Positions 1,137 to 34,133 of a stretch of DNA of 64,000 nucleotides are shown one piece after another (the stretch's first letter is position 1; every line of letters starts with the position of its first letter). Source of the stretch: Hemileia vastatrix. Taxonomy: Eukaryota > Basidiomycota > Pucciniomycetes > Pucciniales > Zaghouaniaceae. The stretch lies in the NCBI GenBank assembly GCA_030280995.1, contig JASXTE010000008.1, positions 22,061,693 through 22,125,692 on the forward strand, written 5' to 3'. A model generated the notes under the pieces. The model did not search any database. It saw nothing but the letters and a program-made list of their open reading frames with translations, and was not told where the DNA came from. A program made the position numbers and the translations under genes.

Positions 1137-1637
1137 CAGTTTTAAGTCTTGGGGGACCATCCTCATTTTATAGTCTTGGGGGACTCAAAAACCCTCAGTT
1201 TAAAGTCTTGGGGGACTCAAAAAACCTAAATCATAAACCCAGAACCAGAGATCAACCACATTAAGACACAGAGAAAAAAACTAACATTCTGGGGTAATTG
1301 TGAATAGAGCTGCCAGCCCATCAATTACCCCCAAACTTGCCTTTGCTAAATTCGGAGGCTCCCCCTGTGGATACCCTCCACCAATCTTTCAAACCGAATC
1401 CAACAACAAAAACTTTTCCCTCAGTTTATAGTCTTGGGGGACTTACAACCCTCAGTTTAAAGTCTTGGGGGACTAACACAGTGTTCAGTTTAAAGTCTTG
1501 ACGGACTACTTCTTGATAAAATCTTGAAACCAGCCAGTTTAAAGTCTTGGAGGACTAACAGAAACCAGATTTCAGTTTAAAGTCTTGATGGACTGACTTG
1601 ATACCATAGCTTTTTCAGTTTAGAGTCTTGATGGACT
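1137..1637 (-). repeat. Cluster of eight TAAACTG hairpin repeats (Gypsy-1)
   Basis: Copies lie at 1137-1158, 1164-1185, 1196-1217, 1422-1443, 1453-1474, 1486-1507, 1535-1556 and 1573-1594, with a ninth, variant copy at 1616-1637. In element sense each reads AGTC, a six-base loop such as CCCCAA, CATCAA or CGTCAA, then GACT and TTAAACTG. The loops vary while the four-base stem and the tail stay constant. The same element occurs in Gypsy-2 and Gypsy-3. Confidence 0.85.
1291..1331 (-). repeat. GGGGTAATTG hairpin, copy 1
   Basis: Perfect 10-bp inverted repeat GGGGTAATTG/CAATTACCCC around a loop that contains CTGGC. Related hairpins are at 4212-4253, 4473-4513 and, in Gypsy-2, 18005-18045. Confidence 0.8.
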
Positions 1638-1788
1638 GACGGAATTTTGCATAAAATGGAGGCAGCCAATTTCATGCAGCACAAATCTACAGCCAACCTG
1701 CTGAACTTCCACCTTCACTTCATCATCTACCCATCACTGACAAAAATCTCCTCCTATCCCTTTTCATCATCTTTTCTCACCACAGATA

Positions 1789-3362
1789 ATGGCTGGATCT
1801 CCTGATGTTAACCCTTCTACTCTCCCTTGCTTCACTGCTCCCAAGGACTATGCCTACAAACAGTGCATCCACATGTGCAGACCTTGCACATTCACTCTTC
1901 CAAATCCTGAATCCAAATTCTACAACAGGGCTTGTGACTCTTGTTATTCCAAAAAGAAAAGATGTGACAGAGAGGCCAACTACCCTATTCCTCCACCTTC
2001 ACCATCTCATAAATACATCTCCAGATCCCCTACCAGATCCCCAGAGCTTGGTCCTTCCTCTTTCTCTCTATCTTCTGCTCCTTCCAGAAGATCCAAAAGC
2101 TCAGCTTCCCGCACTCTTCACAAAAGACCAGCCTTAGCCTCACAAGAAACTGCCTTTATCTCCACCAAATTGGCTCCAAAAGCTTCAAAATCAACTCCCA
2201 GGCTTCTAGACCGCGTCCAGGCGGCCCAGCCGACGTTGGGGGGCCCGCCCGCCTCACCAAACAGTGAAAATCAGGGCCAAAACCTCCAAAAACGGTCAGA
2301 AAATAGCCAAATTCATCCAGACAACAACAACAACTCAACCCAACTACCTCCTACTGCTCCCAGAGCAATGCAATCCACCCTTCCAAAAACCAAAAACACC
2401 AAAATTTCCCAGATTTCTAAGAGAACTGCCAGAGAACCCCAAGAAGAAACCAGAACACGACACACTGCTCCACAACAACAACTTTGTCTCCAACTAAGAC
2501 AAAGAAACTACACCTCTCCTCTGTCAGCCAACTACTCTTCTGACAGTTCCATCTCTTCAAATTCTCCATCCAGAAGAGAGCAGTCTGCTTCCAAATCTCC
2601 CTCTCCTTCTCCATCCTTTAACAACCCTGGTACTCCATCACCAGCACCTCCTCCAGCTGAATCCAACAGAAATAACAACCACAACAACAACCACAATCTC
2701 ACTGCTCCAACTAGGCCCCAGGAACCTCAGCATCCCAGTTCACCTTCTCAGGATCTTTCAGAGGAAGACCATGAGAATCCATATCTTTCCCTAGTTGATC
2801 CACCCACTATGACCATTACAAAATCGTCAGAGATCCAAATCCCAGCTGCTTACAGATTTGATGAACTTCCAATCTGTAAGTACAAAATTAATTATTCCAT
2901 TTCTTCAACAAAAATAATTACTGATCCAATTCTTCTTGTCTAGTTGGCACCCCTCCTCCTGAATCTATTATTGGAGTTGGCCAAACTCTTGAAACTTCTT
3001 TGACCCTGGATTATGGAGACATGAAGAAACACCTAAGCACCATGTGTTCCAACATGCTAAAAGCCTTTGCCCTCCATGGACCCTTGAATGACTTTGAAAA
3101 ATCCCTGAGAAAGCGCCTGCTGGAAGACCACTGGAAAATGTCTTGGATCATTAAACAAACCCTCCAGCACTCCATTCCTGCCTCTTCTTCTTCCTCCTCT
3201 GAACTTCCCTCTAATCCAATCCCTATAATCTCTCCAGCAGGATGCACTTCAAAGAACACAGTGCTTCCCATAATCCCAACAAAAAACAAAAACGTCATCA
3301 CAATCTGGACCAGCCTCCAGAAGCTTCATCATCCAGACAATGAGCCCCTGAAAAAAGATTAA
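1789..3362 (+). CDS. Antisense gene B: Ser/Pro-rich cysteine-cluster protein
   Basis: This intact two-exon gene runs opposite to gag-pol in the Gypsy-1 3' region. Exon 1 is 1789-2875 and exon 2 is 2944-3362. The 68-base intron starts GTAAGT and ends TTGTCTAG, and splicing restores one frame of about 501 residues. The N-terminal region has Cys26, 30, 33, 49, 52 and 59. The last three form C-x2-C-x6-C with a basic stretch (YSKKKR), like half of a Zn2Cys6 cluster. Residues 65-330 are low-complexity, rich in Ser, Pro, Asn and Gln. The last 120 residues are charged and may be helical. It has the same plan as gene A, which suggests duplication. A regulatory or nucleic-acid-binding role is a guess. 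Gypsy-2 shows no counterpart. Confidence 0.7.
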
Positions 3363-4650
3363 AAACATAATAATAGTATAAAACAATTAATAAAAATAAA
3401 TTCAGAATTTTTTTTTTTTTTTTATGTATCTACTAATATACTAAAATTAAAAATTAATAACTAAAATGAAATGAAATAAAATAAATGAAATAAAATAAAT
3501 GAAATAAAATAAAATATAAAAAATAATACAAATGGTATTCCCCAGCCAATTGATGAGCTGATCCCCTTATACCTTACCCACATCCAAGTGCACCTTGATG
3601 TGAATACACCTTAAAATAATTTTTAAATGATTTGAGATAAAAATATATTGAGAAAAATATAAATCAAGAAAAATAAAATAACAAAATTCAAAAAATTTAG
3701 AAATTCAGAAGGTAATAAAAATAATGAAACACAGAAACACATGAAATAAATAATAAATAAAAATAAAATAGCATTGCCCGGCCAATTGATGAGCCTTTCC
3801 CCACCAATGCTTGCCCACATCCAGGTGACCCTGATGTGGTAACACCCTATATTTTTGATTTTATAATTTTGAACAACCCCCATAAAAAAATTAATAGAAA
3901 AAAAGAGAAAAAAGAAAATAATCTAAAACTACTATCTAGAAAAAACATAACTGCAAAATCAAAGAAGGTCCAGCTCCATAGATGATCCTATAAGAGAAAG
4001 TCCGGTCCATAGAAATGATCACTGGGTGGGCTCCCTCCAATAAGTAAAAATGATGGGAGACCACCAGTGATCCACCACCAATCTGAAAGAACCAAAGATA
4101 AAGAAGCCAGTCCCAAACCAGTTTAAAGTCATAGCGGACTTAAAACCTGAATAATAAACAACAGAACTAGAATTCAACTAGGAAAAACAAAAGACTTGAG
4201 ACAGACATTCTGGGGTAACTGTTCTACAGAGCAGCCAGCTCATCAGTTACCCCCACACTTGCCAAAATAAAATCTAGAAGCCCCCCCCTGGGTAACTTCT
4301 AACAAAAACACAACATCCAACACAATAAACAAAATATAATAAGAGTGAAGATTCCGGCACTTGAAAACCAAAGCAATTTCCAGTTTAAAGTCATAGAGGA
4401 CTAAAACCTATGAAAAGAAACCAATACTAGGGTTCAACCAAATTAAGAGAAAGGGTTGGAAACAGACAATCTGGGGTAACTGTTGATAGAGCAGCCAGCC
4501 CATCAGTCACCCCTACACTTGCCAAGATCAAATCTAGAAGCCCCACCCATGGGTACCTTCTAACAAAAAATTCCAACAAACAGATGCATAGTATCACCAC
4601 AAAAAAAACCAAAATTAAAGAATGGTCCATAGTTTATCCTCATTGCAGAG
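3363..4650. other. Noncoding 3' region of Gypsy-1 with structured repeats
   Basis: No gene is visible. The region contains two CCACATC/GATGTGG hairpins (3577-3602, 3814-3839), a long GATCACTGG/CCAGTGATC inverted repeat (4017-4072), two GGGGTAACTG hairpins (4212-4253, 4473-4513) and three TAAACTG hairpin repeats (4119-4140, 4381-4402, 4629-4650). Counterparts of each type, in the same sense relative to pol, occur downstream of pol in Gypsy-2. The rest is A-rich sequence. Confidence 0.75.
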
Positions 4651-6045
4651 TCAATCTTCTTCATGCCTAGTGCCTCTGGGATAAAACCTTTTCACTTGGT
4701 CTGCAGCCACCCTCTTTTTCAAATCTGCACCATCCAACTCTTCCAAAACATAAGAACCTCCAGACGCCTGAGACCTGACTCTGTAAGGTCCATTCCATCT
4801 GTCAGCAAACATTTTGCCCCACTGACTCTCCAAACTTCTATTATACACCAAAACCAAACAACCAGGTTTCAAGGGATTCCTGAGTCTATGAGCTAACTTC
4901 TTGTCCCAGTATCTGACTGATTGATTCCTAATCTTCATCATTCTAGAGTATGCCTTCTCTTGACATTCCTCTCTACATTCCAACTGTTGCATCCTGGCAC
5001 AGAGAAATTCTTCTGTTGAGTGCATGTCATCCCAATCAATTCCAAGATAAGAGACAGCTTCCAAGTCCACTGGTAGAACGGCTTTTTGACCAAACATTAG
5101 CTCATAAGGAGAATAGCCAGTTGTCCTCTTCACAGTGACCCTATCAGCAAATAACACCAAGGGTAAATAATGCCTCCACATTTCAGCACTATCTCCGCAC
5201 ATCTTCACCAAAGCATTCTTGATAACTTGATGGCCTCTTTCAACCATGCCTTCAGCTTCAGGATAATATGGTGTAGCCACTCTAACCCTAGAACCAACAC
5301 TAGCCACAGCTTCTTTAAATTTGGCACCAAACTCTGGCCCACCATCAACAGTCACCAACTTCATCGACCCATACCTATAAATCTACTCCTTCTTCAAAAA
5401 CTCTGCCACATTCTTGGCAGTCAAATTAACCAGAGGCACTGCCTCAACCCAATCAGACAAATCATCCCTAGCAACAATCAAGTATTTATACCTTCCCTCT
5501 TTAATATGGACAGCATCCAGACTGACCCTTCCAAAAACAGTTGATTCACCAGTAGCACGGCCCATCTCTTTAGGTTTCAAGTGACTTCTTCTTTGACATT
5601 CTTCACAAGATTGAACCCAACCCTGCACAGCCAACTTCATACCCGGCCACCAAAATCTGTCTGCTACTCTTCTATAAGTCTCCCCAAAGCCTCTATGACC
5701 AAGGTCTACATGCTAAGACTTCAAAACCAATTCTTGACCCTTCTTCTGAGTCACCACCACTTGAGGATTAGGATGTCTCCTTCTCATCAAGCGCCTTCCT
5801 GACACATAAAATCCAGGACTCTTCTTCTTGATTGCCAACCAAGTATCATCATCACAACTATCTGGCCTCTCCAAGGTCAAAAGATATTCCACCAAAATAA
5901 AATAAAACCCAGATTGACCCCAGGTCTCATCTTCAAAATCCAACAAAACAACATCCAAGGGTACAACTTTGTCATCAAAATCACCAGTGTGAACATGAGC
6001 CAATTGAGCAGCCCAACCATGACACCAATCCTTAAATTTTGGCAC
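4651..6045 (-). pseudogene. Gypsy-1 integrase region (in-frame stops)
   Basis: One reading frame continues from the RT/RNase H block and is cut by single stops at 6082-6084, 5713-5715 (TAG) and 5383-5385 (TAG in place of Trp). It contains the HHCC zinc-binding region (CEECQRRS) and the catalytic core: Asp in VSLDAVHIKEG, Asp in VTVDGGPEFG and Glu in EAEGMVERGHQV. A basic C-terminal region ends KRFYPRGTRHEED. Integrases of this class insert the cDNA into host DNA. I see no chromodomain. The stops match sense codons in Gypsy-2, so they are mutations of this copy. A TAAACTG hairpin directly follows the stop codon. Confidence 0.9.
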
Positions 6046-6081
6046 GTCCTTCTCTTTCCACTGAACCTTGTGAGAATCCAG

Positions 6082-8640
6082 TTAACTAACAAAAACACCC
6101 TTTTCCAATTTTGAGCTGTCCCAAACCACAACTCCATCTTCATCAACAAAAACATCCTGATCACCAGAATCAAGATCAGATCCAGCCAGTTTAACCTCTT
6201 GGGGGAGGTCAGAACAATCATCCAGTTTAGCCTCATGGGGGAGGAAAGAAAAATCCTCAGCACCCTTTGTGCTGGCCCTAATCACTGGAACATCTTCGTC
6301 AAACTCTTCAGAATCAGAATCCTCATCTGTAGGTGGCCTCCTTGATAATCCATCAGGCATAGTAAAAGTTTTACCTGGTTTGTGTATCAGGTCAAAAGAA
6401 AAATGTTGAATAAATGCCACCCACCTAGTCATTGGAGCATTTGGAAGACTAGGTGTATTGATCATCTGAACCAAAGATTTTGTATCCACCTGCAGCTCAA
6501 AATGCTGCCCCCACAAAACCGTCTGTAGCTTCTTTAAAATTTTAGCTACGCCACACAATTCCAACTTAGGTTGAGAATACCTAGATTCCACCTCATTAAA
6601 CACCACAGACTCATACCTTACTGGCCTGACCCTCCCAGTCTTATCCTCCTGAGACAAAACAGCACCAGCAGCAATATAACTTGAGTCCACTGCCAGATAA
6701 ATCTTTCCAGCACCAACACCATAATCCAACTTGTGAAGAATTATATCTTCACCAACAACCTTTTTCAACTTCTGAAAAGCCTCTTCACACTCTTCAGTCC
6801 ATTCCCAATCTGCATCTTTTCTGGTCAACCTCCTTAAAGGTGAAGCCAACAAAGAAAAATCCTTAATGAAAACCCTGACATATACACATACACCCAAAAA
6901 TCCTCTGACTTCTGTAGTATTTTTAGGCCTTGGCCATGCCTGAATTTTATTAATCTTCTTCTTCGCCATAATCCTTCCCTCTTTACATACCACATGACCC
7001 AGAATTTCCAAAGCAGGAACACAACAACAGAATTTTGACCCTGAAATGGTCAAACCAGCCTCTTCAATCCTAAACAACACTCTCTCTAGAGTTATTGCAT
7101 ATTCCCACACAAACCTCCTTATTCCAGGGTTCTCCGATAACACCTCATTACCATAATCAGTGGATGGTCCTTTAATTTCACCATCATCAATAAAAATACC
7201 AGCATAAGTAGGAACCTCATCCTGCAAAATCCAAGCCATCTGTGCTTGATAAACTGCCACCGAATTAGTTGCTCCTTGAGGCAACCTAGTGAGCTGAAAT
7301 CTTCCCAAAGGAGTCTCAAAAGTTGTGAGAGGCCTTGAATCCGTATGTAGTTCCCTCTCATCATAACCACCCATAATATCACCCAAACCATAACACACCC
7401 TTCCAGAAAAAGCTTCAACAAAATCCTCTGCACTTGGCAGCATACCAGCGTCCTTGATAGTGACTCTATTCAAGGCTCTAAGATCATGAACCACCCTCAA
7501 CTTTCCATTCTGCTTCTTTACACAGAACACCGGACTTGAGTAACTGGATGTTGATTGTTCATATAACCCAGTCCTGACTCTTTCCCTAACAATCTCTACA
7601 AAATCCTCTCGAATAGCGGCTGGAATCGGAAAAGGTTTGATTTGCCAAGGTTCATGACAAACAACAGGAGTCAAGTAAGGTTCCCCATAAGAGTGCTTCA
7701 ATACACCCCTTTCCTCCTCAACAAATTCCACCGCTTTTTCCCTTAGCACAATAATGTGCAACAACAACTTCTTTTCTTCCTCAGACAACCACCCATCAGG
7801 ACCAAAATTAACAACTTTCAATCTTTCCACGGTCACCCTAGCCGTCTCTACAAATTCTGGAGGATTCTTCACCAATGGAGTACAGTACGGATCTCTTGAC
7901 AAAGGAGGTCTCTTCAAAGGTGGATTCAAACCCACAGGCATAGGCTCATTGACAGGCCTAATCTTCTGCGCTACCTTCTTATACTTTGCCGCTCCATCTT
8001 CAACTTGAGGGATCTTCAGGAAATCTTCACCAACAGACCTGGAACAAAAACCAAGGGTTTCCCCATTGCTCACATGCGTGGCTAAGGTAATGTTTTTGAA
8101 AGGTGTAGAAGAAACCTTAGCGGTGCACAATTGGGAGGACTTACTTTTACACCCCAATCTCACCACTCCAAAACTTTTCCGCAATTCCACATCTTCATCC
8201 TCACTTCCAACTTCCAAATCTTCAAATCTTGATTCATCTTCTGAATCACATCTTCTAAAATTGTGCAGTTTATCCTCATGCTGGAGGTCCAAAAATAGAT
8301 CTTGATGATCTTCTCTCTTCAAAATTTTCTGCAGTTTAACCTCATGCTGGAGGCCCAAAAATAGATCTTGATGATCTTCACAAAAATATTTTGCATCTTC
8401 TTTCTTCATTATCTTCAGATTTTTTTCTTGATTTTCGTGAATTATCTTGAAATTGTTATCTTCTTTTCTTGAGTTTTCTTCTGTCCTACAAATATAACCA
8501 GGGGTTTCCCCAATTCTCACAGGTGTGGCCCAGGTAATGTTTTTGAAAGGTGTAGAAGAAACCCTAGCGGTGCACAATTGGGAGGACTTACTTTTATACC
8601 CCAATCTCACCACCCCAAAACTTTTCTGCATATCTTTCAA
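6082..8640 (-). CDS. Gypsy-1 linker, reverse transcriptase and RNase H
   Basis: Longest open frame of the element, about 852 codons. Residues 1-250 form a low-complexity linker with an internal duplication: KSFGVVRLG-type blocks near residues 6-50 and 155-200. The linker also holds two LQHE-V/D-KL peptides encoded by hairpin repeats. RT follows with KLRVVHDLRALNRVT, GLGDIMGGYDE and the active-site box FIDD near residue 483, where many relatives have YVDD. RNase H is near residues 640-770 (AVDSSYIAAGAVLSQ, KLELCGVAKIL, LQVDTKSLVQ). The frame is -1 relative to protease, so translation is expected by the frameshift signal at 8797-8883. The first Met here is not thought to be the real start. Two stops lie between the shift site and this frame. 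Confidence 0.93.
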   Translation of the reverse strand: MKDMQKSFGVVRLGYKSKSSQLCTARVSSTPFKNITWATPVRIGETPGYICRTEENSRKEDNNFKIIHENQEKNLKIMKKEDAKYFCEDHQDLFLGLQHEVKLQKILKREDHQDLFLDLQHEDKLHNFRRCDSEDESRFEDLEVGSEDEDVELRKSFGVVRLGCKSKSSQLCTAKVSSTPFKNITLATHVSNGETLGFCSRSVGEDFLKIPQVEDGAAKYKKVAQKIRPVNEPMPVGLNPPLKRPPLSRDPYCTPLVKNPPEFVETARVTVERLKVVNFGPDGWLSEEEKKLLLHIIVLREKAVEFVEEERGVLKHSYGEPYLTPVVCHEPWQIKPFPIPAAIREDFVEIVRERVRTGLYEQSTSSYSSPVFCVKKQNGKLRVVHDLRALNRVTIKDAGMLPSAEDFVEAFSGRVCYGLGDIMGGYDERELHTDSRPLTTFETPLGRFQLTRLPQGATNSVAVYQAQMAWILQDEVPTYAGIFIDDGEIKGPSTDYGNEVLSENPGIRRFVWEYAITLERVLFRIEEAGLTISGSKFCCCVPALEILGHVVCKEGRIMAKKKINKIQAWPRPKNTTEVRGFLGVCVYVRVFIKDFSLLASPLRRLTRKDADWEWTEECEEAFQKLKKVVGEDIILHKLDYGVGAGKIYLAVDSSYIAAGAVLSQEDKTGRVRPVRYESVVFNEVESRYSQPKLELCGVAKILKKLQTVLWGQHFELQVDTKSLVQMINTPSLPNAPMTRWVAFIQHFSFDLIHKPGKTFTMPDGLSRRPPTDEDSDSEEFDEDVPVIRASTKGAEDFSFLPHEAKLDDCSDLPQEVKLAGSDLDSGDQDVFVDEDGVVVWDSSKLEKGVFVS
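6187..6245 (-). repeat. Two coding hairpin repeats in Gypsy-1 (after RNase H)
   Basis: Copies at 6187-6210 and 6223-6245 read CCTC, loops CCCCAA and CCCCAT, GAGG, then TTAAACTG or CTAAACTG in element sense. They encode the peptides LPQEVKL and LPHEAKL. Confidence 0.8.
8058..8633 (-). repeat. Duplicated segments in the Gypsy-1 linker
   Basis: A segment of about 130 bases occurs at 8058-8190 and 8505-8633 in direct orientation with few differences. Between them a shorter unit of about 66 bases is repeated (8266-8395), and each unit begins with a CCTC-CAGCAT-GAGG hairpin repeat (8266-8290, 8332-8356). Both duplications keep the reading frame. Confidence 0.85.
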
Positions 8641-8796
8641 TAAAGATATATAACCAATCTTCTTCTTTGAACTTGAATTAAAAATAATTAAGAATCTTGA
8701 GAGAGAACAGAGACTTGATAAAAAACTTCATGAATACTTGCAGAGAAGAGAAACATTAAAAAGAGAAAGTTGAAAATCCACTTGTTATATCTCCAA

Positions 8797-11346: not shown

Positions 11347-12410
11347 TGTAGACAATCCTATAGTACTAGCTATAGGCCTTGACCAAGGGAGTTGGAGAAA
11401 AACCAGAGAGAACATCCCCTGTCCCTTTAGAAACATAAGTGAGATTTACTTGCTAAAGTAAGTTGGTTCCTGTTTTGCTAAAGACCCCTTTTAAACACAC
11501 TTGACTGCTTGATGAGCCAAGAAAGTAGTCACCAGATAGACTACCAGACCAAAGAACTGAAATGTAGAACAAAGTCCACACCAGAGACAGCAAAGATACT
11601 TGATGTAGGCTGCAAATCCACACCAGAGACAGCAATAATACTTGCTATAGCTTGCAAGACTATAACAGAGAAAACAGTTGCCAAAGTTAAGTTAAATGAA
11701 GAACTCACTTGCAACAAACACAGCCAATTGTGGCCAGAAAACAGTGAAAACTGAGTGAGGAACAATGAGATCACCTCCGGATGGTTGTATGATGATTAAG
11801 GTTGCCCCAAACTGTCTTATTCACTATGTACACACAGACCACTAACTAAGAGCCCATGCGCACCCACCAATCTGGCGCCTGTACCTTCCAAATCGCATAA
11901 AAAACCCTCCTGGAGCGCTCCCCAACCTCCTAAAACAGAGGCGGACGGGCCGCCCGACCTCCCTGAAGCCAGAAAACCAATAAAAACCACTAATCTACTT
12001 AGAAAAATTAGCTACAACTACTAAAACCTTTAAAACACAGAATTTCACTATAACAACATTGAGACATGAAATATAGAGAAAAATTAGCTCTATCCAATAG
12101 TACTAAGCACTTAACCCTAAGACTTAAGGTTAGCCCGTAAAACACGAAAAACAAAATTAAACAGCAATCTTTTATAAATGAAAAATGAGGAAATGACCCC
12201 TTAAAACTCAGAATATGAAAAATGTCTACAGGACATAAAATATAGAGAAAAACCAGGGCTATCCAATGATAGTACCCACATACCCGCAGACCCAATATCC
12301 ACGGAATAAAACCAGAAAAATACCAAATTCCTTAACAGATGTCAATTAAGACATGCACAAACAGCGCCAAATCACACAACAAAGGCCCCTGCCAATGTTG
12401 GAAGACCACA
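11347..12410 (-). repeat. Gypsy-1 5' LTR (1064 bp)
   Basis: In element orientation it starts TGTGGTCTTCC (12410) and ends GGATTGTCTACA (11347), the usual TG...CA ends. The TG-proximal 386 bases are repeated at 1-386. It should carry the sense promoter. Confidence 0.93.
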
Positions 12411-12426
12411 CCGCCAACAAATTGAA

Positions 12427-13770: not shown

Positions 13771-14004
13771 GACCTCCAGCAAGAAGGTAAACTGAAAATA
13801 TCACATCAAAATCCGATTAAAAATCTCAGTATAATTAAAACACAAAAAAATAATCTATGTGAAAATGTTATTCCGGACCTCCAGCAAGAGGGTAAACTGC
13901 AAAAATCACATCAAAACCCGATTAAAAATCTCAGTATAATTAAAACACAAAAAAATTATTTTTGTGAAAATTCAATTCCAGTCCCCCAGCAAGAGGTTAA
14001 ACTG
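13771..14004 (+). repeat. Tandem coding repeat carrying hairpins (Gypsy-2 linker)
   Basis: Two 105-base units start at 13771 and 13876 and a third starts at 13981. Each opens with a hairpin repeat: CCTC-CAGCAA-GAAG, CCTC-CAGCAA-GAGG and CCCC-CAGCAA-GAGG, followed by GTAAACTG or TTAAACTG. They encode LQQEGKL, LQQEGKL and PQQEVKL. The unit sequence differs from the Gypsy-1 linker repeats, but both carry the hairpin. Confidence 0.9.
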
Positions 14005-15963
14005 CCAACTTTCTTTACGGGGGATTTACTGTTGGATAAGGGAAGCAAAGGTGTTGGAAAATCTGTTTATAAATTAGATGAAGGAAAGGAGAAAAGGTTA
14101 AAATTTAAAAATGAAATAAAGTATTTTTCTAATCTTTCTTATTCCAATTCTGATGATGAAATTTTTAATGGCAAAACAAAAGTAAATGTTTTACCTCAAG
14201 TTTATTTAGATGTGGACGCAGCCAAATATAAGAAAGTAGCAAATAAAGTTCGACCTATTAATGAACCTCTACCTGCTGAATAAAATCCACCTTTGAGAAG
14301 ACCAAGGTTATCAAGAAATCCTTATGAAAGTCCCTTGGTAAAGAATCCGCCTGAATTTTCTGAGACGTCAAGAATCACTTTTGAGAGACTGGGTGTTGTT
14401 AATTTTGGACCTGATGGTTGGTTGTCTGGAGAGGAGTAGAAGTTGTTGTTGGATGTGATGGTCAAGTGAGAGAAGGCCATCGCTTTTGTAGAAGAGGAGA
14501 GGGGTGTGTTGAAGCATTCCTATGGGGAGCCTTACAAGATTCCTGTGGTATGTCATGAACCCTGGCAGCAGAAACCGATTCCTATTCCGGCTGCATTAAA
14601 AGAAGCCTATATTGAAGTTGTCAGAGAACGGATACGCACTGGACTGTATGAGCAATCAACGTCAAGTTATTCTAGTCCGGTATTTTGTATCAAGAAACCG
14701 AATGGAAAGCTTAGAGTTGTTCATGATCTTAGGGAATTAAATAGGGTTACAATAAAGGATGCTGGGATACCACCTAGTGCTGAGGAGTTTGTTGAAGCGT
14801 TTGCAGGGAGAGTGTGTTATGGTTTGGGAGATATTATGGGTGGATATGATGAGAGAGAGTTACATCCGGACTCAAGGCCTCTCACTACATTCGATACGCC
14901 ACTAGGACGTTTACAGTTAACAAGATTACCTCAAGGAGCAACAAATTCGGTTGCAGTTTATCAAGCTCAGATGGCTTGGATCCTTCAAGACAAAATTCCA
15001 CAATATGCTGGAATCTTTATAGATGATGGAGGAATTAAGGGACCAACAACCGACTATGATAACCAGGTGTTGGAAGAGAATCCCGGGATACGCAAATTCA
15101 TTTGGGAGTTTGCAATCACTTTAGAAAGAATCTTGTTTCGAATTGAAGAGGCTGGTTTAACTATTTCTGGTTCAAAATTTTCATGTTGTGTGCCAGCCTT
15201 AGAAATATTAGGCCATGTGGTATGTAGAGAGGGTAGGATTATGTCCAAGAAGAAAGTTAACAAAATTCAGTCCTGGCCAAGACCCAAGAATACGACCAAA
15301 GTTAGAGGGTTTTTAGGTGTTTTTGTATATGTTAGAATGTTTATCAAGGACCTTTCTTCATTGGAAGCTCCATTGAGATGGTTAACAAGAAAGGATGCAG
15401 ACTGGGAGTGGGATGAAGAGTGTGAGAAGGCGTTTGAGAAGTTGAAGGAGGTTGTGGGGAAGGATTTATTCCTGCAAAAGTTGGATTATGGAAAAGATTC
15501 TGGCAGAATTTATTTAGCAGTTGATTCAAGTCAGGTTGCAGCTGGGGCGGTTTTGTCTCAGATGGATAAAGCTGGTTACATCAGGCCAGTTAGGTATGAA
15601 TCTGTAGTATTTACTGAGGTCAAATCAAGATATTCTCAACCAAAATTGGAATTATTTGGTGTGGCAAAAATAATGAAGAAACTTCAGCATATTTTTTGGG
15701 GGAAACATTTTGAGTTGCAAGTGGATGCAAAATCGTTAATCCAGATGATTAATTCCCCAAGTTTACCGAACGCACCCATGACGAGATGGGTAGCTTTTAT
15801 TCAACATTTTTCGTTTGATTTAGTTCATAAGCCTGGCAAGACTTTTACTATGCCAGATGTTTTATCAAGGAGACCACCCACTGAAGAAGATTCAGACTCA
15901 GAAGAGTTCGATGAAGATATACCTATTATCAAAGCCAGCACTAAAGGAGCTGAAGACTTTCCA

Positions 15964-16044
15964 TACCTCCGCCATGAGGTTAACCTGGCAGGATTATTGT
16001 GTTTAGATTATGGTGATGATGACCTCCACCAAGAGGATAAATTG
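15964..16044 (+). repeat. Two coding hairpin repeats after Gypsy-2 RNase H
   Basis: 15964-15988 reads CCTC-CGCCAT-GAGG then TTAACCTGG. 16021-16044 reads CCTC-CACCAA-GAGG then ATAAATTGG. The position matches the two copies at 6187-6245 in Gypsy-1. Confidence 0.78.
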
Positions 16045-16119
16045 GAAAATAGTTTTTATGTTAATAAAGATGTTTGAAAAGGTGTAGATAAATTCGGTAG
16101 AAAGGAGGTAGAATAAGAT

Positions 16120-17793: not shown

Positions 17794-18004
17794 CTTCTTT
17801 TTATCAAAATACTTTACTGTCATTACACTGCATATGGGCGACAAAACTGTGATGAAACTTAACAAAATGCAAGAAAACCTTCTTTGAAATTTTCAAAATT
17901 TAAAATTTTTAAAATATGGGTGAAGATAGTGTTGGAAAATTTTAAAAATTTATTGCTAGAAGTGTTCACAGGGGAACCTTCTTAATTTAATATTGGCATG
18001 TGTG

Positions 18005-18045
18005 GGGGTAATTGATGGTCTGGCTGCTCTATACACAATTACCCC
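18005..18045 (+). repeat. GGGGTAATTG hairpin, Gypsy-2 copy
   Basis: Arms GGGGTAATTG and CAATTACCCC pair perfectly around a 21-base loop. Compared with Gypsy-1 copy 2 (GGGGTAACTG/CAGTTACCCC), one pair has changed on both sides. Confidence 0.8.
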
Positions 18046-18804
18046 ATAATGTTCGTTTCCAAAATTTTCCCTGTTTATAGTTGAATCCTGGCTTTGTCTT
18101 TTAATTATAGGAAGTCCACTAAGACTATAAACTGGAACAAATCAAGAGACACCGCTCTCAACGCCGGATTCAAGATTTTATATATATATTTTTTAAAATT
18201 TTGTTTTTTATGTTAGATTGTGATTTCTTTCCTTTAAATATATATTATGAATTATTGCAAAGGTGATGCTCACGGGTGGTCTCTAATCATTTTTATAAAT
18301 TGGAGGTAGCCCACCCAGTGATCATCATTATAATATTATCTTCTAAAAACTTTCATTTATTTTCTTTTCTTTTAAATTTCTCAATATTGTGTAACCACAT
18401 CAAGTTGCACTTGGATGTGGGTATGATGTTGAGGGTACGGCTCATCAAATGGCTGGGGGGCATCTTTTAAAATTTTAATTTTGATAATTCTTTTTTATTA
18501 CTTTTTTTATCTTTCTTTAAAAAATTAAATTTTAACTTTTATTTCAAAACTATCTTTTATAAATCTTTCAAAAATAAAAATAATAATAAAATAAAAATAA
18601 AATAAAAAAATAAAATAAAAATAAAAATAAAATAATAAAATGAAAAAATTCATTAATTAAATCAAAATTATTATTATAGTTCTTAGTTTTATTTTTCAGT
18701 CTTCATTCTTTTTAGTTTTATTCATTTAGTTTAGACAGGAAACAGGGTCTAGGGGAACTCAATACCTATGAAATTTTACTTCAAGATTTTATGTTGGAGC
18801 TGTT

Positions 18805-19459
18805 AGTCCTCCAAGACTTTAAACTGGCTACTCTTCAAGATGTTCTTTAAGGTTTTTTATACGTATTTTGGATCTGTTAGTCCTCCAAGACTTTAAACTG
18901 GCTAATCTTCGAGACTGTCATTAAAGATTTTATATTGGAGTTGTTAGTCCTTCAAGACTTTAAACTGAAATTCAAGGACGTTCAAGATTTTATGGATATT
19001 TTTGGAGAAGGGTTCAAGGATAGAGAAGTTGTTAGGTCCTCCAAGACCTTAAACTGGACTATTATCAAGTTGTTGGGTCCACCATGACCTAAAACTGGAT
19101 TTCTTATCAATCAAATTTTTGGTCCACCATGACTTTAAACTGGTAGTTCATTCATTGTTTTAGTCCCTTATGACTTTAAACTGGAAAATTAATATCTGCA
19201 GGAAAATTCAACATTCATTGGTCCACTATGACATTAAACTGGATTATCAAGTTTATTCAATCTTTGGTCAAGCCTAGGCCTTACTTAGGAATATTTCAAG
19301 TTATTTATGCACTTAAACGATCTTTGGTCCACCAAGACCATAAACTGGCAATCGATTATATGTTTGGTCCACCAAGACTTTAAACTGGAATGTCAATCTT
19401 GTTTGGATAACTCAATTCAATCTTTTAATTTATCACTGTCCACTAAGACTCTAAACTGG
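18805..19459 (+). repeat. Array of twelve TAAACTG hairpin repeats (Gypsy-2)
   Basis: Copies at 18805, 18879, 18946, 19034, 19075, 19121, 19162, 19220, 19326, 19376 and 19437, with spacing of roughly 40-105 bases. Stems are AGTC/GACT or GGTC/GACC, loops include CTCCAA, CACCAT, CCTTAT and CACCAA, and the tail is TTAAACTGG or a close variant. Eleven copies are clear; a twelfth may be hidden in the decayed spacers. Confidence 0.88.
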
Positions 19460-20112
19460 TTATTCAATCAAATCTGGAATTGGGTGATGATAAGCTTTAG
19501 GAGGTTAAAATTTTAGGTGGTGATGATGCTAAGGAAAGCATAATGGTTAATTAGGTGAAATTTGTGGCGCTTTAACATGGTCTAAAGATAATATTATTAT
19601 TATTGGAAGCCTGGCAAAAGTATTTTATAGGTTGCTATTTAGCAATGGTTGAAATTGTGATGAAGGAATCAGAAGTTAGGATGGTAGTTGGATTTTAGGG
19701 AATGATTTTTTTAGTGCCTCATAGTTAGGCCATTTTTGGTGTAAAGCTTGGAGGACCTTATGGCAAGATTGGAATCATAGAATTAGGCTCAGTGGGGGGC
19801 CCTATGAGATTGGAATCAGGAGTATTCGGCTCATTAGGAAGATCCACTCTCTCAATGCTGTGACATGAAGGAAGACTGGTTAATGGGAGTCTGAAGGGAT
19901 TCAAACCTTGCTCTCAGTAGTGGAATCATCACAAGATTTATTTTATTTTATGTTATATCAAGCCAGAGAAGAAGAAACAATGTTTTTATTTTTAAAAATT
20001 AAAAGAAGACCAGCTAAAACAAATTTATCAAATTATTTTATTAGAAAAGATAATTCTTTTGGAATTGCTCAATCACTTATGCAAAGTTTTAAGAATGGGG
20101 ACATTCTCAATT

Positions 20113-20122
20113 GGAGGGAGGA
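20113..20122 (+). other. Polypurine tract of Gypsy-2
   Basis: GGAGGGAGGA directly before the LTR start TGTGGTAG, identical to the Gypsy-1 tract. Confidence 0.9.
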
Positions 20123-25811: not shown

Positions 25812-26148
25812 TTTTGAGCAAGTATTCATCCTCCGTGTTATTAAAGCCCCTCATTAGCAATTGATTTCATTACATATTGGATGCGAACACATATTTTTAC
25901 TGAAAGATATTTGATTCATTACATTATCTTGGCCTTGCTCCCGCAATAAAACTTCATTTCGCAACTCACTTGCCGAAAACTTAATTTACTACTTTGCTCT
26001 TCTTAGCTTTTTTCATTTTCATATAACATCACTACTACTCACCATAAATTATCATTTATATATACTTGCTACCCATAACAACTAATATAAGCTTAAAGTA
26101 TGTCAAGTGACTCTAGGAAAAAGTGATTGCCAAACTGGACTCCTCACT

Positions 26149-26560
26149 CTATGCACCAAGTAAGATATCACTGATGGGGATATCCAGCGCGAGTCAGGGA
26201 TATTGTAGGGAGGGACATAAAGATAGAAAAATATGTACAAGAAAAATATGTGTAAGGAAAATATATGCCAAAAAAATATGTGAGAAAAATAACCATGGGG
26301 AATTTAGTTTTTAAAAAAAAATTTTCTCAAAAAAATGATTTTTTACCTCATTTTTCATTTTTTCCTGTTTTTTACAATTTTTTTTTTTGAAAACAAAATT
26401 CTCATGGTTGAAAATGAATTTTCTTACATTTGCTTTTCTCGCACTTATTTTTCTTGCACTTACTTTTCTTACATTTATTTTTCTGACCTTATGTCATTCC
26501 CTAAAATATCCCCAACTGGCACTGGATATCCCCATCAGGGATATCTTACTTGGTGCATAG
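26149..26560. mobile_element. MITE-5, 412-bp element with long terminal inverted repeats
   Basis: The outer 37 bases at each end are inverted repeats with one mismatch (26149-26185, 26524-26560), containing ATGCACCAAGTAAGATATC. Looser pairing continues inward through tandem GAAAAATATGT-like units for about 150 bases. TA directly flanks TGCACC at both ends, which would fit a Tc1/mariner-type TA duplication. No coding sequence. Confidence 0.75.
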
Positions 26561-28652: not shown

Positions 28653-28653
28653 T

Positions 28654-28673
28654 TGGTTGCTCCCAACATGGGG
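28654..28673 (+). other. Primer-binding site of Gypsy-3
   Basis: TGGTTGCTCCCAACATGGGG just after the LTR end, matching the Gypsy-1 site TGGCGCCCAACGTGGGG apart from a short difference near its start. Confidence 0.7.
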
Positions 28674-28781
28674 CTCACATTTTCTGGATTTTAAAGGACT
28701 TAATTGATACTTGGACTTTCTTAGCCTGAAAGAGGCTCACTTTTTTGAATGCTTATCAAATTTTTGATCTTTACTTTTGGG

Positions 28782-29835
28782 ATGTCTTCTTCTACTGATT
28801 CTGGTGTTTCTGCTGCTGGTGCTACTCCTGTAATGGAATCAGTAAGGATTCAAACTTTGTATGTGTCCAAGTTTAATGGCAAGGAATAAAATGGTTTTTG
28901 AGTAGGTATGAAGCTTCTTCTTTTGTTTATGGGGCTTCTCTTGTGGATATGGTGAAGCAAATTAGGTTCTTTATTGTGGAAAGAGAGGTGGAAAAAGAGG
29001 TCATTGCTATGGAGGGTTATAAAAAGTGGGATTGGATTAATTTTTCAAAAGAGATGATTCAAAGATGGGTTCTGAGGTATTCTACAGTGGATTTGAAAAT
29101 TAATTTCAGTGTGTGAAAGGCAAAATATGGTTTTGCTTCATTGGTGGATTATAGGAAAATCCTTGGAGAGTTTGATGAAGTGGTGAAATATCTGGTGTTG
29201 GTAAAGGAAATTTCTCAAGAAAATCTGGCTAAGGATCTCTTTTGGTCTCATTTTAATAGGAGTGTTAGAATGGATGTGCTAAAAGATTTTCCTAGGAAAA
29301 TTCTGATGAAGAATTCCCCTAATGAAGAGCAGAAACTTCCTGCTTTATTGATTATTAATTGAGAATGTGGAGGAATACCTCAAACTTATGGCATTGGACA
29401 GATTTCAAGAATATTGAAATAAGTATTTCAGAAAGATCAGAGAAGTTTTGGCTGAGAATAATGATATTATGGTGAAAGCTCAAGAGGATAAGAAGGATCA
29501 GACAGGACAGCTGCTTGCTAAAGCTGAAGGTAATTATAATAATCAGATGGTGGATCAGTTGGCTGACTTCACAAAGCAGCTAAAAAAGTTTGTCCATGTG
29601 ACAAAAAAGGTCAATAAGGACCCTGTTTCTTTGTACTTTTCTACTTCTTATAAATCTAGGGGTTATGAGAGGAGGAATTATGATTATAATTGTAACAATA
29701 ATTGATTATCTGGAAATGGAAATGGTAGAAATGGGTATAATAGTATTAATGGTTATAGAGGTGTATATGGTGAGGTAAAGGTGTGCTCTTATTGTAACAG
29801 GCAGTGGCACAAACCTGGTGATTGTTATTTTTGGA
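28782..29835 (+). pseudogene. Gypsy-3 gag
   Basis: Starts ATGTCTTCTTC. Several stops and shifts break it, but the Gag order is clear: VRIQTLYVSKFNGKE, then MVKQIRFFI, YRKILGEFDEVVKYL and MDVLKDFPRKILMK match Gypsy-1 Gag. The zinc knuckle at 29783-29824 reads CSYCNRQWHKPGDC, an intact CCHC. This indicates the Phe in the Gypsy-1 knuckle is a change. Confidence 0.85.
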
Positions 29836-31365
29836 TAGGGACCTGAATTCTTTTAGATTCAAAATTTATGGAAAGGTTTACAAGTTTCCTGATATATCTT
29901 TCATCAAGCCCAGTGATGGTCAGGATCTGTCAGATTTTTTTTGTAGAAATATGTTGGGTGAAAAAAGGAAATTTTTTGAAGAGCTACCTGGTGGTAATGA
30001 TGATAATAGTGGAAAAAGTGATGGTAATTGTGGTAATGGTAAAGATGAGAAAGAAAAAGGTAAAGAGAAGGAGGCCAGTAAGGCCACATTTTCAACTTCA
30101 TTTGGTGGTTTGGAGTTTTGTTTTGTTGTTAGGGTGGATGGAAATTGTATGGCTGGAGAATATGATTTGAATACTGCTAGAAGGGCAGCCACTAATAAAG
30201 CAAAGAGTAGCATTAAAAGTCAGCTTAGGGCTAAACCAGATAAGGTGGAGCTGAGAAATGTGGAAATGAAACATTATTTAAAAGATGAAATTTATTGGAT
30301 TCAGAAGGGGATGGCTGATATGGGGTCTGCTAGCTCTGGTACTTTGGATTTAAATGGAGAACCTATGCATGTGAATGAAGAATCAGATTCTGAGGAGGAT
30401 GTGTCTTTAGAATATATCCCCAGACCAAGTTTTAGTAGTCACACTCCAATGGAGAGAGTACAGAGAATCAGTTTTGGATCTGGATTGGTTAAAGTTGGTG
30501 GTGATAAGATTGCAGTTATTAATTCAAAAGATGTTGGAATGGCTGTTGATGATGTAAATTTTGGTTCTCAGTAGGTGTATAGGACAAAGGTGGTTAAAGC
30601 AAAGGCTCAGTATGAAAGGTAATTTGTGGATGATAAAGAGAATATGATGGATATGATTTTGGGTAATTTGAATTAATTTCAGATTCCTCTATTCTAGGTT
30701 AATTATTTACTATTAGTCCTGCCCTTGCACAGAAGCAAAAGAAGCCTCTGAGAAGGAGATGGGTGTCAGTTGTAGAGGTGGAATATATGTGTGAAAATGT
30801 AGAAACTTTTTGTGAGGAGGTGGAATTCATTTTTCTACTCCTATGGGATATTGGGTAGTGACATTAAATGGTAAAAAGATAAAGGCCCTGATGTATTCTG
30901 GCCCTTAAATTAATCTAATTTCATTGGAGCAGGCTACAGGTATTAGTCTTCCACTTAAGACTGGTACTGGTGGGAATATTAGAGGAATTGGAGGACATGC
31001 TAGTGAGCTGATGGGTATAGCAGAGTATGTAAAGTTAGGTGTTGGTGGATCTGTTTCTAAAGCCCATTTATATGTGGCCATAGGGTCTGTAAGAAAGGTT
31101 CTTGGTGGTCCTTTTTTAATAGATTTTGAAGCCAAGATTTGTAATCATTCTGGAATGGGTATAAGTTTGGATATTACTGGTGATGATGTGAAAAATTTTA
31201 CATATGCAGTTGGTACCTCCAGAAGATGAAGGTTGTGAAACTAGGCCTAGAGTGACTCCAATGTGTCAGTGTTGTGTTTTAACCTAGAAGAGGCAAATTA
31301 AAATGTCAGCTTCTGGTGAAATAATTAGAGAAATGTATAATGGAGACCCCCATTTTTTGGGGTAG
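29836..31365 (+). pseudogene. Gypsy-3 linker and protease
   Basis: The linker is open to 30574 (KVYKFPDISF, YLKDEIYWIQKGMADMG, LDLNGEPMHV) and shows no stop where Gypsy-1 has TAA. The protease site is destroyed (MYSGP then a stop, then INLIS). GIGGHASELMG and VLGGPFLIDFEAKI remain. It ends CATTTTTTGGGGTAG at the frameshift site. Confidence 0.85.
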
Positions 31366-31438
31366 GAAGGGCTGATCACTCTATTGTTTTAATCCCTCCT
31401 CAAAATGAGATCCTGGATCAAAGTATTTCAGCTCACTT
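31353..31438 (+). promoter_or_regulatory. Frameshift signal of Gypsy-3 (slippery site kept, stem decayed)
   Basis: T TTT TTG at 31353-31359 followed by GGG TAG, identical to Gypsy-2. The outer arms GGGCTGA and TCAGC remain. The inner arms TTTTAATCC and GGATCAAAG pair with one mismatch and one wobble. Confidence 0.7.
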
Positions 31439-34133
31439 GGAGTTAATTCATGTGTATTCTCAATTAATTTCTGTTGATATTTCATTGTTTTACAGATATT
31501 TGATGGATTTTTCTATATGTCCTTCATCATTATCAACTTTCTCTATTAGTTTTAAAAATGGGACAAGAGAAGAGAAGAGATTTATTATTTTTGATAAAAG
31601 ATAGAATGGTAATTGGTTTAAAATGTTGGATATTAGCAGTGTATATTCTGGGGGATTATTTTCTGACCTCCTTCATGATGATAAACTGCCAGTAACTCAA
31701 CAAAATTAAGAAAAAAATCTTAATATAATTAATTAAAAATAAAATATTATTTGTGAAAATTTTGTTTCTGTCTTCCAGAAAGAGGTTAAACTTCCAACCT
31801 TATTTACCATGGATTTCATGGTGGCTTATTTTGGTAATGGCAATAAAAATATAGTGTAAAATTAGATGAAAATATGTATGATAAAATTTATAATAAAATA
31901 TATGTTTTAATTTGTTTTGTTTCTGATTATTATTATGAAGAAATTTCTGATTATGATCTATGTAGTTATGGATCAAGAAGTTATCATGTTACTCAAGTCA
32001 AAGTCAATTTTTATGCAGAAAAATATAAAAATGTAGCTAATAAGGTCAAGCCAATTAATGAACCTCTACAAGCTGAATTAATTCACCTTTAAAGAGTCCC
32101 AATTCATCAAGAGATACTAATGAAATTCCTTAAGTCAAGAATCAACCTGAACTTTCTGAAACATCAATAATCAATTTTGAGAGAAAAGGTGTTGTAAATT
32201 TTGGACCTGAAGGCTGGCTATCAGGTGAAGAGAAGTAGTTGTTGGATGTGGTGGTAAAAAGGGAGAAGTTCATTTAGAAGTGTGTTAAAGCATTATTATG
32301 GGGAATCTTACAAGTTTCCTGTAGTGTGTCATGAAACATGTAAGCAAAATCCAATTCCAATTTCTGAAGCTAAAAAAAAGGCTATATTGAAGTTATTAGA
32401 GAAATAAATTTGTACTTGGTTATAAGAACAATCATAATAGAGTTATTAACGTCCAATATTTTTTATCAAAAAACCAAATGGAAATCTCAGGGTAGTTCAT
32501 TATCTAAGAGAACTAAGTAGGGTGACAATTAAAGATGCTGATATACCACCTAGTTCACAAAGGTTTGTGAAAGAATTTTCTGGTAGAGTGTGTAATGGGT
32601 TAGGAAATATTAGGGGGTGTCAAAGCTAGAAATCTTCCATTTCAAAATACCCCTTTTTTCCACCAAATTAACCATGATTAATTTTTAAAATATTTCATAT
32701 TGTGACCCCAAAACACCTCTTTACTGAGAATCAATATCAAGTTTTTGGATTCCTTTTTGTGTTGTGAAATACCATTTGAATAGTTACAAATTTCTAACTT
32801 TGATACCCCCTATTATGGGGGAATATGATGAGGGAGAGTTGAATCCAGATTCTATACCTCTCATTACTTTTGATAATCTTCTTGGACCATTACAGTTAGC
32901 AAAATTACCTCAAGTGGAACCAAACTCAGATGGCTTGAATTCATCAAGATAAAGTTCCTCAGTATTCTGGTATACATATTAATGATGGGGGAATCAAAGA
33001 AACTTCAACAAACTATGATAATGAAGTTTTGGAGGAGAATCCAGGGATACAGAAATTTATCTAGGATTTTGAAATTACTTTAGAAAGGATCTTGTTTAGA
33101 ATTGAAGAGGCTGGCTTAACTATTTCAGGTTCCAAATTTTGTTGTTGTGTGCAAGCTTTAGAGATTCTTCGTCATTTGGTATGTAAAGAGGGTAGGATAA
33201 TTTCAAAGAAGAAGGTTAATAAAATTCAGTCCTGGCTTAGACCTAGAATTACAACTGAGGTCAGGAGTTTTAGGGGTATTTTTTATGTTAGAATGTTTAT
33301 TAAGGATTTTTCTTCATTGGAAGATCCATTGAGAAGGTTAAATAGTAAGGATGCACATTGGGAGCAGGATTAAGAGTGCAAAGAGGAATTTGTGAAGTTG
33401 AAAAAGGTAGTTGTAGAAGATATTGGGCTCCATAAGTTGAATTAATTGAAAGGATCATGTAGGATATATTGGGGAGTGTATTAATGCCAAATAGCTGCTG
33501 GGTAGGTCTTGACTCAGATGGATAAAGCTTGTTATATTAGACAAGTCAGGTATTAATCTGTAGTATTTACTGAAGTAGAGTCAAGATATTCTCAACTGGA
33601 ATTTGAATTATGTGGTGTGGTAAAAATTCTGAAGAAACTTTGAAATGATTTATGGGGAAAACCTGTCAAGCTTCAAGTGGATGCTAAATCATTAATTCAA
33701 TTTATAAATACACCAAGTTTACCAAATACACCTAAAACCAGATGGTTATCTTTTATTCAACATTTTTCATTCTATTTAGTCCACAAGCCTGGAAAAAATT
33801 TCACTATTCCAGATGGATTGTCACAAAGACCACCCACTGAAGAGAATTTCGTCTAAGAAGAATTTGATGAAGATATACCTGTTATCAAAGAAAGCACAAA
33901 AGGTTGTAAAAACTTTCCTTACCTCCCTAATGAGGCTAAACTCAAAGACTTTCTATATTTAAATTGTTACAAGTTGATGGTAAATGATGTGTTTAGAGAA
34001 GATGTTGCAGATAAATTAGTTAAAATAGTGGATGGATATTTAGAGGTATTTTGTGATGAAGATGGTGTAGTTGTTTGTATAGTATTAAACTTGAGAGTGG
34101 TCTATATGTTGGAGAATTAGTTAATTTGGTTAA
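31366..34133 (+). pseudogene. Gypsy-3 linker, RT and RNase H
   Basis: Fragments in several frames. They include hairpin repeats at 31665-31688, 31770-31793 and 33920-33943. RT pieces include LRVVHYLRELSRVTIKDA, GEYDEGELNPDS and the open stretch 33092-33373 (RIEEAGLTISGSKFCCC through MFIKDFSS). The RT box region reads HINDGGIK, so FIDD is lost. RNase H remnants follow (LQVDAKSLIQ, KPGKNFTIPDGLS). MITE-1a interrupts GDIMGGYDE. The block ends at the CACTA MITE. Confidence 0.85.
32613..32810 (-). mobile_element. MITE-1a (198 bp, Harbinger-like ends)
   Basis: Begins GGGGGTGTCAAAGC and ends CTTTGATACCCCC, flanked by TATTA on both sides (32608-32612, 32811-32815). The uninterrupted codons exist in Gypsy-2 RT, which gives the empty site. 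Copies at 35386-35582 and 49557-49752 are in the opposite orientation. Confidence 0.9.

Follow-up and report, generated by a model that had tools for sequence, protein, structure and literature searches.

A repeated, covarying candidate pseudoknot in coding and noncoding parts of Gypsy elements of Hemileia vastatrix

Introduction

The P1-P2 pseudoknots of beet western yellows virus (BWYV), pea enation mosaic virus 1 (PEMV-1), potato leafroll virus (PLRV) and sugarcane yellow leaf virus (ScYLV) have a 2-nt first loop (L1) starting with C, a 3-bp second stem, a 1-nt junction and an A-rich third loop (L3). Structures of luteovirus and polerovirus frameshift pseudoknots have been solved (PMC3835772; this and all other articles are cited from extracts). 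Here we describe a 23-nt unit, like these in its near-minimal H-type layout, that is repeated in three Ty3/Gypsy elements (Gypsy-1, Gypsy-2 and Gypsy-3) within 64,000 nt of the Hemileia vastatrix genome (contig JASXTE010000008.1, positions 22,061,693 to 22,125,692; hereafter the window). From sequence comparison, the unit is very probably a pseudoknot under RNA-level selection. It differs from the viral pseudoknots in lacking a slippery site 5-9 nt upstream in 11 of 12 coding copies, in being mostly noncoding in the window, and in occurring 15 times in Gypsy-1 and 17 times in Gypsy-2.

The upstream pseudoknot domain (UPD) family of tobacco mosaic virus (TMV) is represented in Rfam as UPSK (RF00390). 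The Gypsy copies resemble this domain as a set of several small pseudoknots, placed in a 3' noncoding region, in an RNA serving as message and genome alike. They differ in lying also inside POL and in belonging to one sequence family, and in that no Rfam match and no tRNA gene was found. The TMV domain is named in a reference title listed by PMC8518580. Rfam release 15 gave no match in the window at gathering thresholds, such models being unable to score a second stem, and UPSK was not among the two weak Rfam matches at E<=5 in 18700-19500.

RNA viruses carry dispersed packaging signals (PMC6281560). The Gypsy units are comparable in that one fold recurs in many sense copies dispersed over the coding and noncoding parts of a genomic RNA. 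They differ in that the unit, as a candidate signal, is a predicted pseudoknot with a near-constant core and belongs to a long terminal repeat (LTR) retrotransposon. Pseudoknots are predicted in GAG and POL of Ty3 (PMC11381356), and a major site for Ty1 Gag-CTR lies in a pseudoknot (PMC4974528). The Ty1 5' and Ty3 GAG/POL pseudoknots are likewise located in the genomic RNA of LTR retrotransposons, but are single pseudoknots in the extracts, whereas the Gypsy unit is a short repeat that recurs in the linkers of POL and in the 3' region. Among the matches listed from open-licence PMC articles, none reports repeated pseudoknots in Gypsy elements. Even in Ty3, how a Ty3/Gypsy element selects its own RNA lacks a precise definition (PMC11381356), and a short, repeated, covarying module is a precise candidate signal for such recognition. 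The unit may also constitute a new RNA family, with more than 100,000 copies counted in one genome, and shows with unusual clarity a single RNA fold maintained in coding as well as noncoding sequence, third-codon positions obeying the fold.

Results and discussion

Architecture and census of the unit

The window contains 35 copies of the unit, 20 on the plus and 15 on the minus strand: 15 in Gypsy-1, 17 in Gypsy-2 and three in Gypsy-3, with 23 noncoding and 12 coding (Table 1). A preliminary description of this DNA had put the number at about 35, at coordinates that prove correct to within 1-2 nt (the coding ones take in two bases before the stem); the copy at 18113 was absent from its list. 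Each unit is composed of a 4-bp stem 1 (positions 1-4/11-14), a 2-nt L1 (C-N), a 3-bp stem 2 (7-9/21-23), one base (L2), and a 6-nt A-rich L3 (N-UAAAC) that would lie across stem 1. Stem 1 has four of four pairs in 30 window copies and three in five, while stem 2 has three of three in 27 and two in eight. The strict form (exact TAAACTG, full 4-bp stem, right spacing) is present 23 times in the window, counting both strands, against a mean of 0.25 in 20 first-order Markov sequences. A covariance model of stem 1 only, built from 80 distinct copies and partly from the window's own, gives 36 matches in the window at E<=1 and 34 at E<0.01.

The 80 copies, distinct at 25 nt, derive from 237 found in a 264-kb sample made up of the window and 20 stretches of 10 kb, the latter chosen for holding the motif and uninformative on copies outside elements. 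Among them, pair 1-14 of stem 1 is AU in 42, CG in 16, GC in nine, GU in six and other in seven, and pair 2-13 is GC in 56, CG in 16, GU in one and other in seven, which confirms the compensated stem 1 changes described earlier. The plan of a four-base stem, a loop and a TAAACTG tail also holds. Its reading as a hairpin with a tail does not, since loop and tail covary, and the G after TAAACTG is not simply optional as had been thought, the base there covarying with loop position 3.

Covariation of the second stem

Loop positions 3-5 are complementary to the last two bases of the tail (TG) and the base that follows. This base is mostly G with CCA or CTA loops, A with TCA and C with GCA, and the stem 2 pairs change in step: CCA/TGG, TCA/TGA, GCA/TGC and once GAA/TTC. 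In the 31772 copy of Gypsy-3, the tail deviates from TAAACTG precisely where its loop deviates. Given that the base after TAAACTG covaries with loop position 3, we read the unit as a pseudoknot. Its hairpin loop is predicted to base-pair with the sequence downstream of the hairpin, the arrangement that defines the H-type.

The nulls used were shuffles, slides and within-class permutations, not a phylogenetic null (R-scape), and the copies are related by descent, so the permutation figures that follow overstate independence and serve as guides only. When column pairs falling entirely inside stem 1 are set aside, columns 7 and 23 rank first in mutual information (0.597). For stem 2 alone, in an ungapped alignment of the 80 distinct copies, 91.7% of positions are paired versus 83.9% after shuffling, and the covariation score is 0.343 versus 0.202, with 0/500 shuffles as high in either case; when the stem 2 partner is slid by one to three columns, 4-34% are paired. 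The whole structure is 93.9% paired, scoring 0.362 versus 0.141 shuffled. Across the 35 window copies, 28 are paired versus 18.1 by permutation (1/200,000 as high), and when 124 distinct 25-mers are shuffled only among those whose stem 1 starts alike, 85 are paired versus a mean of 71.4 and a highest value of 84 (0/20,000). Capture of 141 distinct 23-mers without the stem 2 columns leaves columns 7-23 paired in 90 (versus 62.7) and columns 8-22 in 100 (versus 87.3), 0/5000 reaching either value. Columns 6-24, as an extension of stem 2, show a weak excess (26 versus 21.5 of 80; 12 versus 8.3 of 35) and were left out of the fold.

A simple hairpin with a single-stranded UAAACUG tail, its loop and tail read as sequence, would be compatible with the stem 1 covariation and the constant tail, and the copies located after the pol stop hold just stem 1 and L3. 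It does not explain why the third loop base and the one following TAAACTG co-change in three pair types, or why the tail G of the 31772 copy changes together with its loop partner. This simpler structure was rejected on the stem 2 covariation and is improbable.

The unit is also short, partly palindromic and present at very high copy number, as might be a DNA-level site for integration, silencing or transcription. Columns 8-22 form U-G pairs in 20 of the 80 distinct copies, which indicates the sense RNA strand, and these and the G-U pairs of stem 1 fit RNA. Further, 201 copies with distinct context have no strong consensus beyond the unit, apart from T richness. A site acting as DNA is thus very improbable.

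Coding copies

Of 21 distinct coding-type 25-mers, the one in locus L051 was dropped as chance; the 20 left include some in decayed frames. The coding copies share one frame, x-CTC-CNN-CAW-GAG-NNT-AAA-CTG-N with small departures, which reads L-x-Q/H-E-x-K-L. Codon 2 ends in G in the seven copies with C after CTG and in C in the 11 with G there, so that third-codon letters obey stem 2 pairing in 18 of the 20 distinct copies, two being unpaired. The peptide is thus, for the most part, dictated by the constant RNA letters. Of the first 62 relatives found with the reverse transcriptase (RT), 33 had the stretch that follows RNase H displayed, and the peptide is present there in none; LHQEVKY occurs in relative P0004. 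No protein relative was found for the 262-aa linker open reading frame, and an RT search of viral contigs gave no match.

Coding-type copies occur at in-frame spacings of 45 and 105 bp, with up to seven in one stretch among the matches listed. An in-frame coding minisatellite with one pseudoknot per unit (45, 105 bp) is found at 13773-14005 (+) and at G000 C2 865622-866092, and its copy number seemingly differs between elements.

These in-frame spacings and the common frame are what would be expected of an LxxExKL peptide minisatellite, selected as protein or neutral, that left noncoding relics. Between neighbouring noncoding window copies, however, 17 of the 20 spacings are indivisible by three, yet the noncoding copies are better conserved than the sequence separating them (in 25 of 25 comparisons, below), and the third-codon positions track RNA pairing. 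The spacings ruled out an ancient coding origin of the noncoding arrays, and peptide-only selection was rejected on third-codon pairing and the conservation of those arrays; an origin of this kind has very little probability. Small luteovirus frameshift pseudoknots are similar to the unit in shape, which raises programmed frameshifting as a function. A slippery heptamer 5-9 nt upstream is present in just one of the 12 window coding copies, which lies in the decayed Gypsy-3, and 23 of the 35 window copies are noncoding. Frameshifting was rejected on the lack of the heptamer in the other 11 and is the least probable of the functions considered.

Sequence conservation

In the 3' arrays, pseudoknots are more alike than the intervening sequence in 25 of 25 pairwise comparisons. 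In the 11 comparisons with less than 75% identity between pseudoknots, the pseudoknots themselves are 87-96% identical and the intervening sequence 67-74%. Gypsy-1 and L033 share 93.5% within pseudoknots and 70.7% between them; for Gypsy-2 and L034, the values are 90.5% and 67.9%. Over 567 ortholog pairs, the pseudoknot columns, of which the constant ones were used in picking copies, differ at 0.2-6.3% versus a flank mean of 12.1%, the second L1 base being the freest. Columns 7 and 23, unused in picking, differ at 2.1% and 3.7%. Selection on RNA, suggested in the preliminary description, is well supported by this low drift, the compensated changes, the sense orientation and the sameness of coding and noncoding copies.

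Orientation and genome-wide occurrence

All 36 model matches are sense to Gypsy-1 (minus), Gypsy-2 (plus) or Gypsy-3 (plus), as had been stated, and the covariance model found neither antisense copies nor copies outside elements in the window, two of the observations named beforehand as telling against the idea. There were no matches in 33947-64000 of the window, nor in gag or the 5' leader of Gypsy-1. The copies are placed in two POL linkers, one between protease (PR) and RT and one after RNase H, and in the 3' noncoding region. Of the 237 copies sampled over 264 kb, 233 share the strand of the nearest Gag, PR, RT or integrase (IN) match; the four discordant copies, all in L045, lie closer to a protease on the plus strand, on the far side of an LTR.

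The core TCCN-X-YAWGANNNTAAACTG-Y was counted on both strands of the genome (747.6 Mb, 791 contigs), the counts being lower bounds and counts of copies, not events. Where X is C, Y is G in 59,489 copies and another base in 14,301 (80.6% G); where X is T, Y is A in 11,016 and other in 974 (91.9% A); where X is G, Y is C in 19,050 and other in 1,090 (94.6% C). Loop A is found in 763 copies, with Y being T in 17 and other in 746. In total, X and Y are Watson-Crick partners in 89,572 of 106,683 copies (84.0%), versus at most 50.2% if independent, using the most generous margins. The reversed pattern gave 0-7 matches per search genome-wide. No match to the motif pattern was found in prokaryotic genome contigs. 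The single 21-nt pattern match in viral contigs (phage L031, 2820-2840, minus), considered as a viral relative, has columns 7-23 unpaired and was judged chance.

Besides the relatedness of the copies, several observations weigh against the explanation favoured here, a selected pseudoknot that marks element RNA. All copies come from one genome. Stem 2 pairs changed on both sides number one versus 1.0 shuffled, with five further pair types versus 4.7; for the whole structure, the values are three versus 3.0 and 10 versus 10.5. These are two of five measures and those least swayed by relatedness, and, with one pair changing on both sides, the two have little power. C-A stands at the covarying pair in 10 of 80 distinct copies and in five of 35 window copies (Gypsy-1, with a CCCC loop, then AGGG or AGGA), for which a shifted CCC/GGG register is possible; C-A may also be present there in part of the 14,301 copies genome-wide in which no G follows C. 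The A-U pair is essentially unused, because only 17 of 763 loop-A copies have T next. The hairpins after the pol stop retain stem 1 and the UAAAC of L3 without stem 2. Low drift in the constant columns is partly selected for by the picking, and the two bases just downstream of the pseudoknot are also quiet (3%, 2%). Finally, L-x-[QH]-[ED]-x-K-L is found in none of 97 RT relatives.

Proposed role

The constant parts are located where the two stems meet and the outer pairs vary yet pair, as expected if a protein or tertiary fold reads the centre. The protein-read face would comprise UC/GA of stem 1, the C of L1, UAAAC of L3 and the inner stem 2 pairs, while the outer stem pairs would need only to pair. 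With 15 copies, Gypsy-1 RNA would bear a multivalent mark, as would Gypsy-2 RNA with 17, and the element's Gag would gather RNA so marked for localisation and packaging into virus-like particles. A mark on the full-length RNA fits the multiplicity of the copies, their sense-only placement and their occurrence both in POL and in the 3' region. A CX2CX4HX4C knuckle is present in four of six Gag regions examined (L041, L042, L049 and Gypsy-3, not Gypsy-1 or L036); this, with the Ty1 Gag site in a pseudoknot, favours Gag-mediated localisation or packaging. Against this, the Ty1 pseudoknot could not be shown to act in packaging, according to the extract (PMC4974528). As a whole, a multivalent mark most likely read by Gag has roughly an even chance of being right, and Gag-mediated localisation or packaging as the specific role is slightly less assured. 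More tentatively, the 23-nt module, at about 15 per genomic RNA and more than 100,000 per genome, might be a self-identity code read cooperatively by Gag for selective packaging, the in-frame coding linkers having been added just to hold more copies.

The chief rival to Gag is a host RNA-binding or translation factor that reads the pseudoknots, which would then act in translation, RNA stability or export, much as the pseudoknot domain at the 3' end of certain plant viral RNAs. The clustering of copies in the 3' noncoding region points this way, and sense-only orientation is compatible with it too. Extracts from two articles report that eEF1A binds 3' pseudoknot domains or 3' untranslated regions (UTRs) of plant viruses (PMC8518580) and describe the upstream pseudoknot domain of TMV as important for replication as well as translation (PMC4683447). 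The copies in two POL linkers would be unexpected for a 3' UTR translation enhancer, there are no motif matches in the window outside the elements, and the window yielded no tRNA gene with ARAGORN, whose power to reveal viral tRNA-like structures is weak. We consider reading by a host factor unlikely, if well ahead of the other alternatives, and prefer reading by Gag.

Carrier elements

Gypsy-1 is flanked by LTR-like repeats at 3-402 and 12027-12425 (96.5% alike) and has, in order, a Gag-named frame, an aspartyl protease, RT-RNase H and an IN-named frame. Pfam supports the aspartyl protease, RT and RNase H and gave no matches for the Gag and IN frames, which were named on position, the CCHC knuckle in other copies and relatives with PF00665. 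This order of Gag, PR, RT-RNase H and IN between LTRs is consistent with a Ty3/Gypsy LTR retrotransposon. Named RT relatives in databases include Puccinia striiformis and Austropuccinia psidii. Gypsy-2 and the decayed Gypsy-3 (28.8-33.9 kb) have matches to the Gypsy-1 frames. Homology of Gypsy-2 to Gypsy-3 begins at 12419, and Gypsy-1 appears to be inserted inside Gypsy-2, in opposite orientation, at 12419-12425. A polypurine tract and LTR start come after the 3' noncoding region of Gypsy-1, and the same are seen near 20122 in Gypsy-2 on reading the sequence by eye.

Two open frames with Cys-rich starts lie antisense to Gypsy-1, at 1789-2943 (+) and 315-851 (+). The 384-aa antisense frame has no Pfam matches, and the stretch 1641-3440 has matches in 11 of the 20 sampled 10-kb loci.

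Table 1. Predicted pseudoknot copies and other repeated features in the window. Stem 2 letters are given as loop/tail; (c), coding or coding-type copy.
Feature	Positions	Strand	Remarks
Gypsy-2 3' noncoding, end of module A	18113..18135	+	CTA/TGG
Gypsy-2 3' noncoding array	18805..18827	+	CCA/TGG
Gypsy-2 array	18879..18901	+	CCA/TGG
Gypsy-2 array	18946..18968	+	TCA/TGA, compensated relative to neighbour 18879
Gypsy-2 array	19035..19057	+	GGTC/GACC stem, CCA/TGG
Gypsy-2 array	19076..19098	+	CCA/TGG
Gypsy-2 array	19121..19143	+	G-U in stem 1
Gypsy-2 array	19162..19184	+	TTA/TGG, two U-G pairs
Gypsy-2 array	19220..19242	+	stem 1 3/4 pairs
Gypsy-2 array	19326..19348	+	GGTC/GACC
Gypsy-2 array	19366..19388	+	
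Gypsy-2 array	19437..19459	+	stem 1 3/4 pairs
Gypsy-1 3' noncoding array	1615..1637	-	TCA/TGA
Gypsy-1 array	1572..1594	-	TCA/TGA
Gypsy-1 array	1534..1556	-	CCA/TGG
Gypsy-1 array	1485..1507	-	TCA/TGA
Gypsy-1 array, CCCC-loop copy	1452..1474	-	C-A at covarying pair, then GGG
Gypsy-1 array, CCCC-loop copy	1421..1443	-	C-A at covarying pair
Gypsy-1, CCCC-loop copy, end of a module A	1195..1217	-	C-A at covarying pair
Gypsy-1, CCCC-loop copy	1163..1185	-	C-A at covarying pair
Gypsy-1, CCCC-loop copy	1136..1158	-	C-A at covarying pair
Gypsy-1, end of a module A	4118..4140	-	
Gypsy-1, end of a module A	4380..4402	-	
Gypsy-1 linker after RNase H (c)	6186..6208	-	LPQEVKL; CCA/TGG
Gypsy-1 linker after RNase H (c)	6222..6244	-	LPHEAKL
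Gypsy-1 PR-RT linker (c)	8265..8287	-	LQHEDKL; GCA/TGC
Gypsy-1 PR-RT linker (c)	8331..8353	-	LQHEVKL; GCA/TGC
Gypsy-2 PR-RT linker (c)	13773..13795	+	LQQEGKL; stem 1 3/4, stem 2 2/3 pairs
Gypsy-2 PR-RT linker (c)	13878..13900	+	GCA/TGC
Gypsy-2 PR-RT linker (c)	13983..14005	+	GCA/TGC; stem 1 3/4 pairs
Gypsy-2 linker after RNase H (c)	15966..15988	+	
Gypsy-2 linker after RNase H (c)	16023..16045	+	
Decayed Gypsy-3 (c)	31667..31689	+	stem 1 3/4, stem 2 2/3 pairs
Gypsy-3 (c)	31772..31794	+	GAA/TTC; model E 0.046
Gypsy-3 (c)	33922..33944	+	stem 2 2/3 pairs
Module A	4378-4580	-	
Module A	4118-4319	-	
Module A	17939-18137	+	
Module A	1196-1398	-	
Second repeated module	3674-3849	-	
Second repeated module	3442-3613	-	
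Second repeated module	18389-18541	+	
Third conserved block	4001-4085	-	
Third conserved block	18270-18325	+	
Post-pol-stop hairpin	17679	+	
Post-pol-stop hairpin	17771	+	
Post-pol-stop hairpin	4651	-	

Other repeated modules

Three further repeated features were seen in the elements. Module A, of about 200 nt, combines a small hairpin with a long stem (GGGGUAAYUG...CARUUACCCC), each copy ending in a pseudoknot copy. When 31 of the 46 candidate copies are aligned, five of 28 predicted pairs change on both sides, and single-copy folds of three copies have z from -1.21 to 0.15. A second module (CACATC...GGATGTGGG...CTCATCAATTGGC) is repeated in the 3' noncoding regions of Gypsy-1 and Gypsy-2, and a third conserved block contains an inverted repeat around GATCACTGG / CCAGTGATC. 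The hairpins after the pol stop have the form CCTC-NNNAA-N-GAGG-ATAAACTA.

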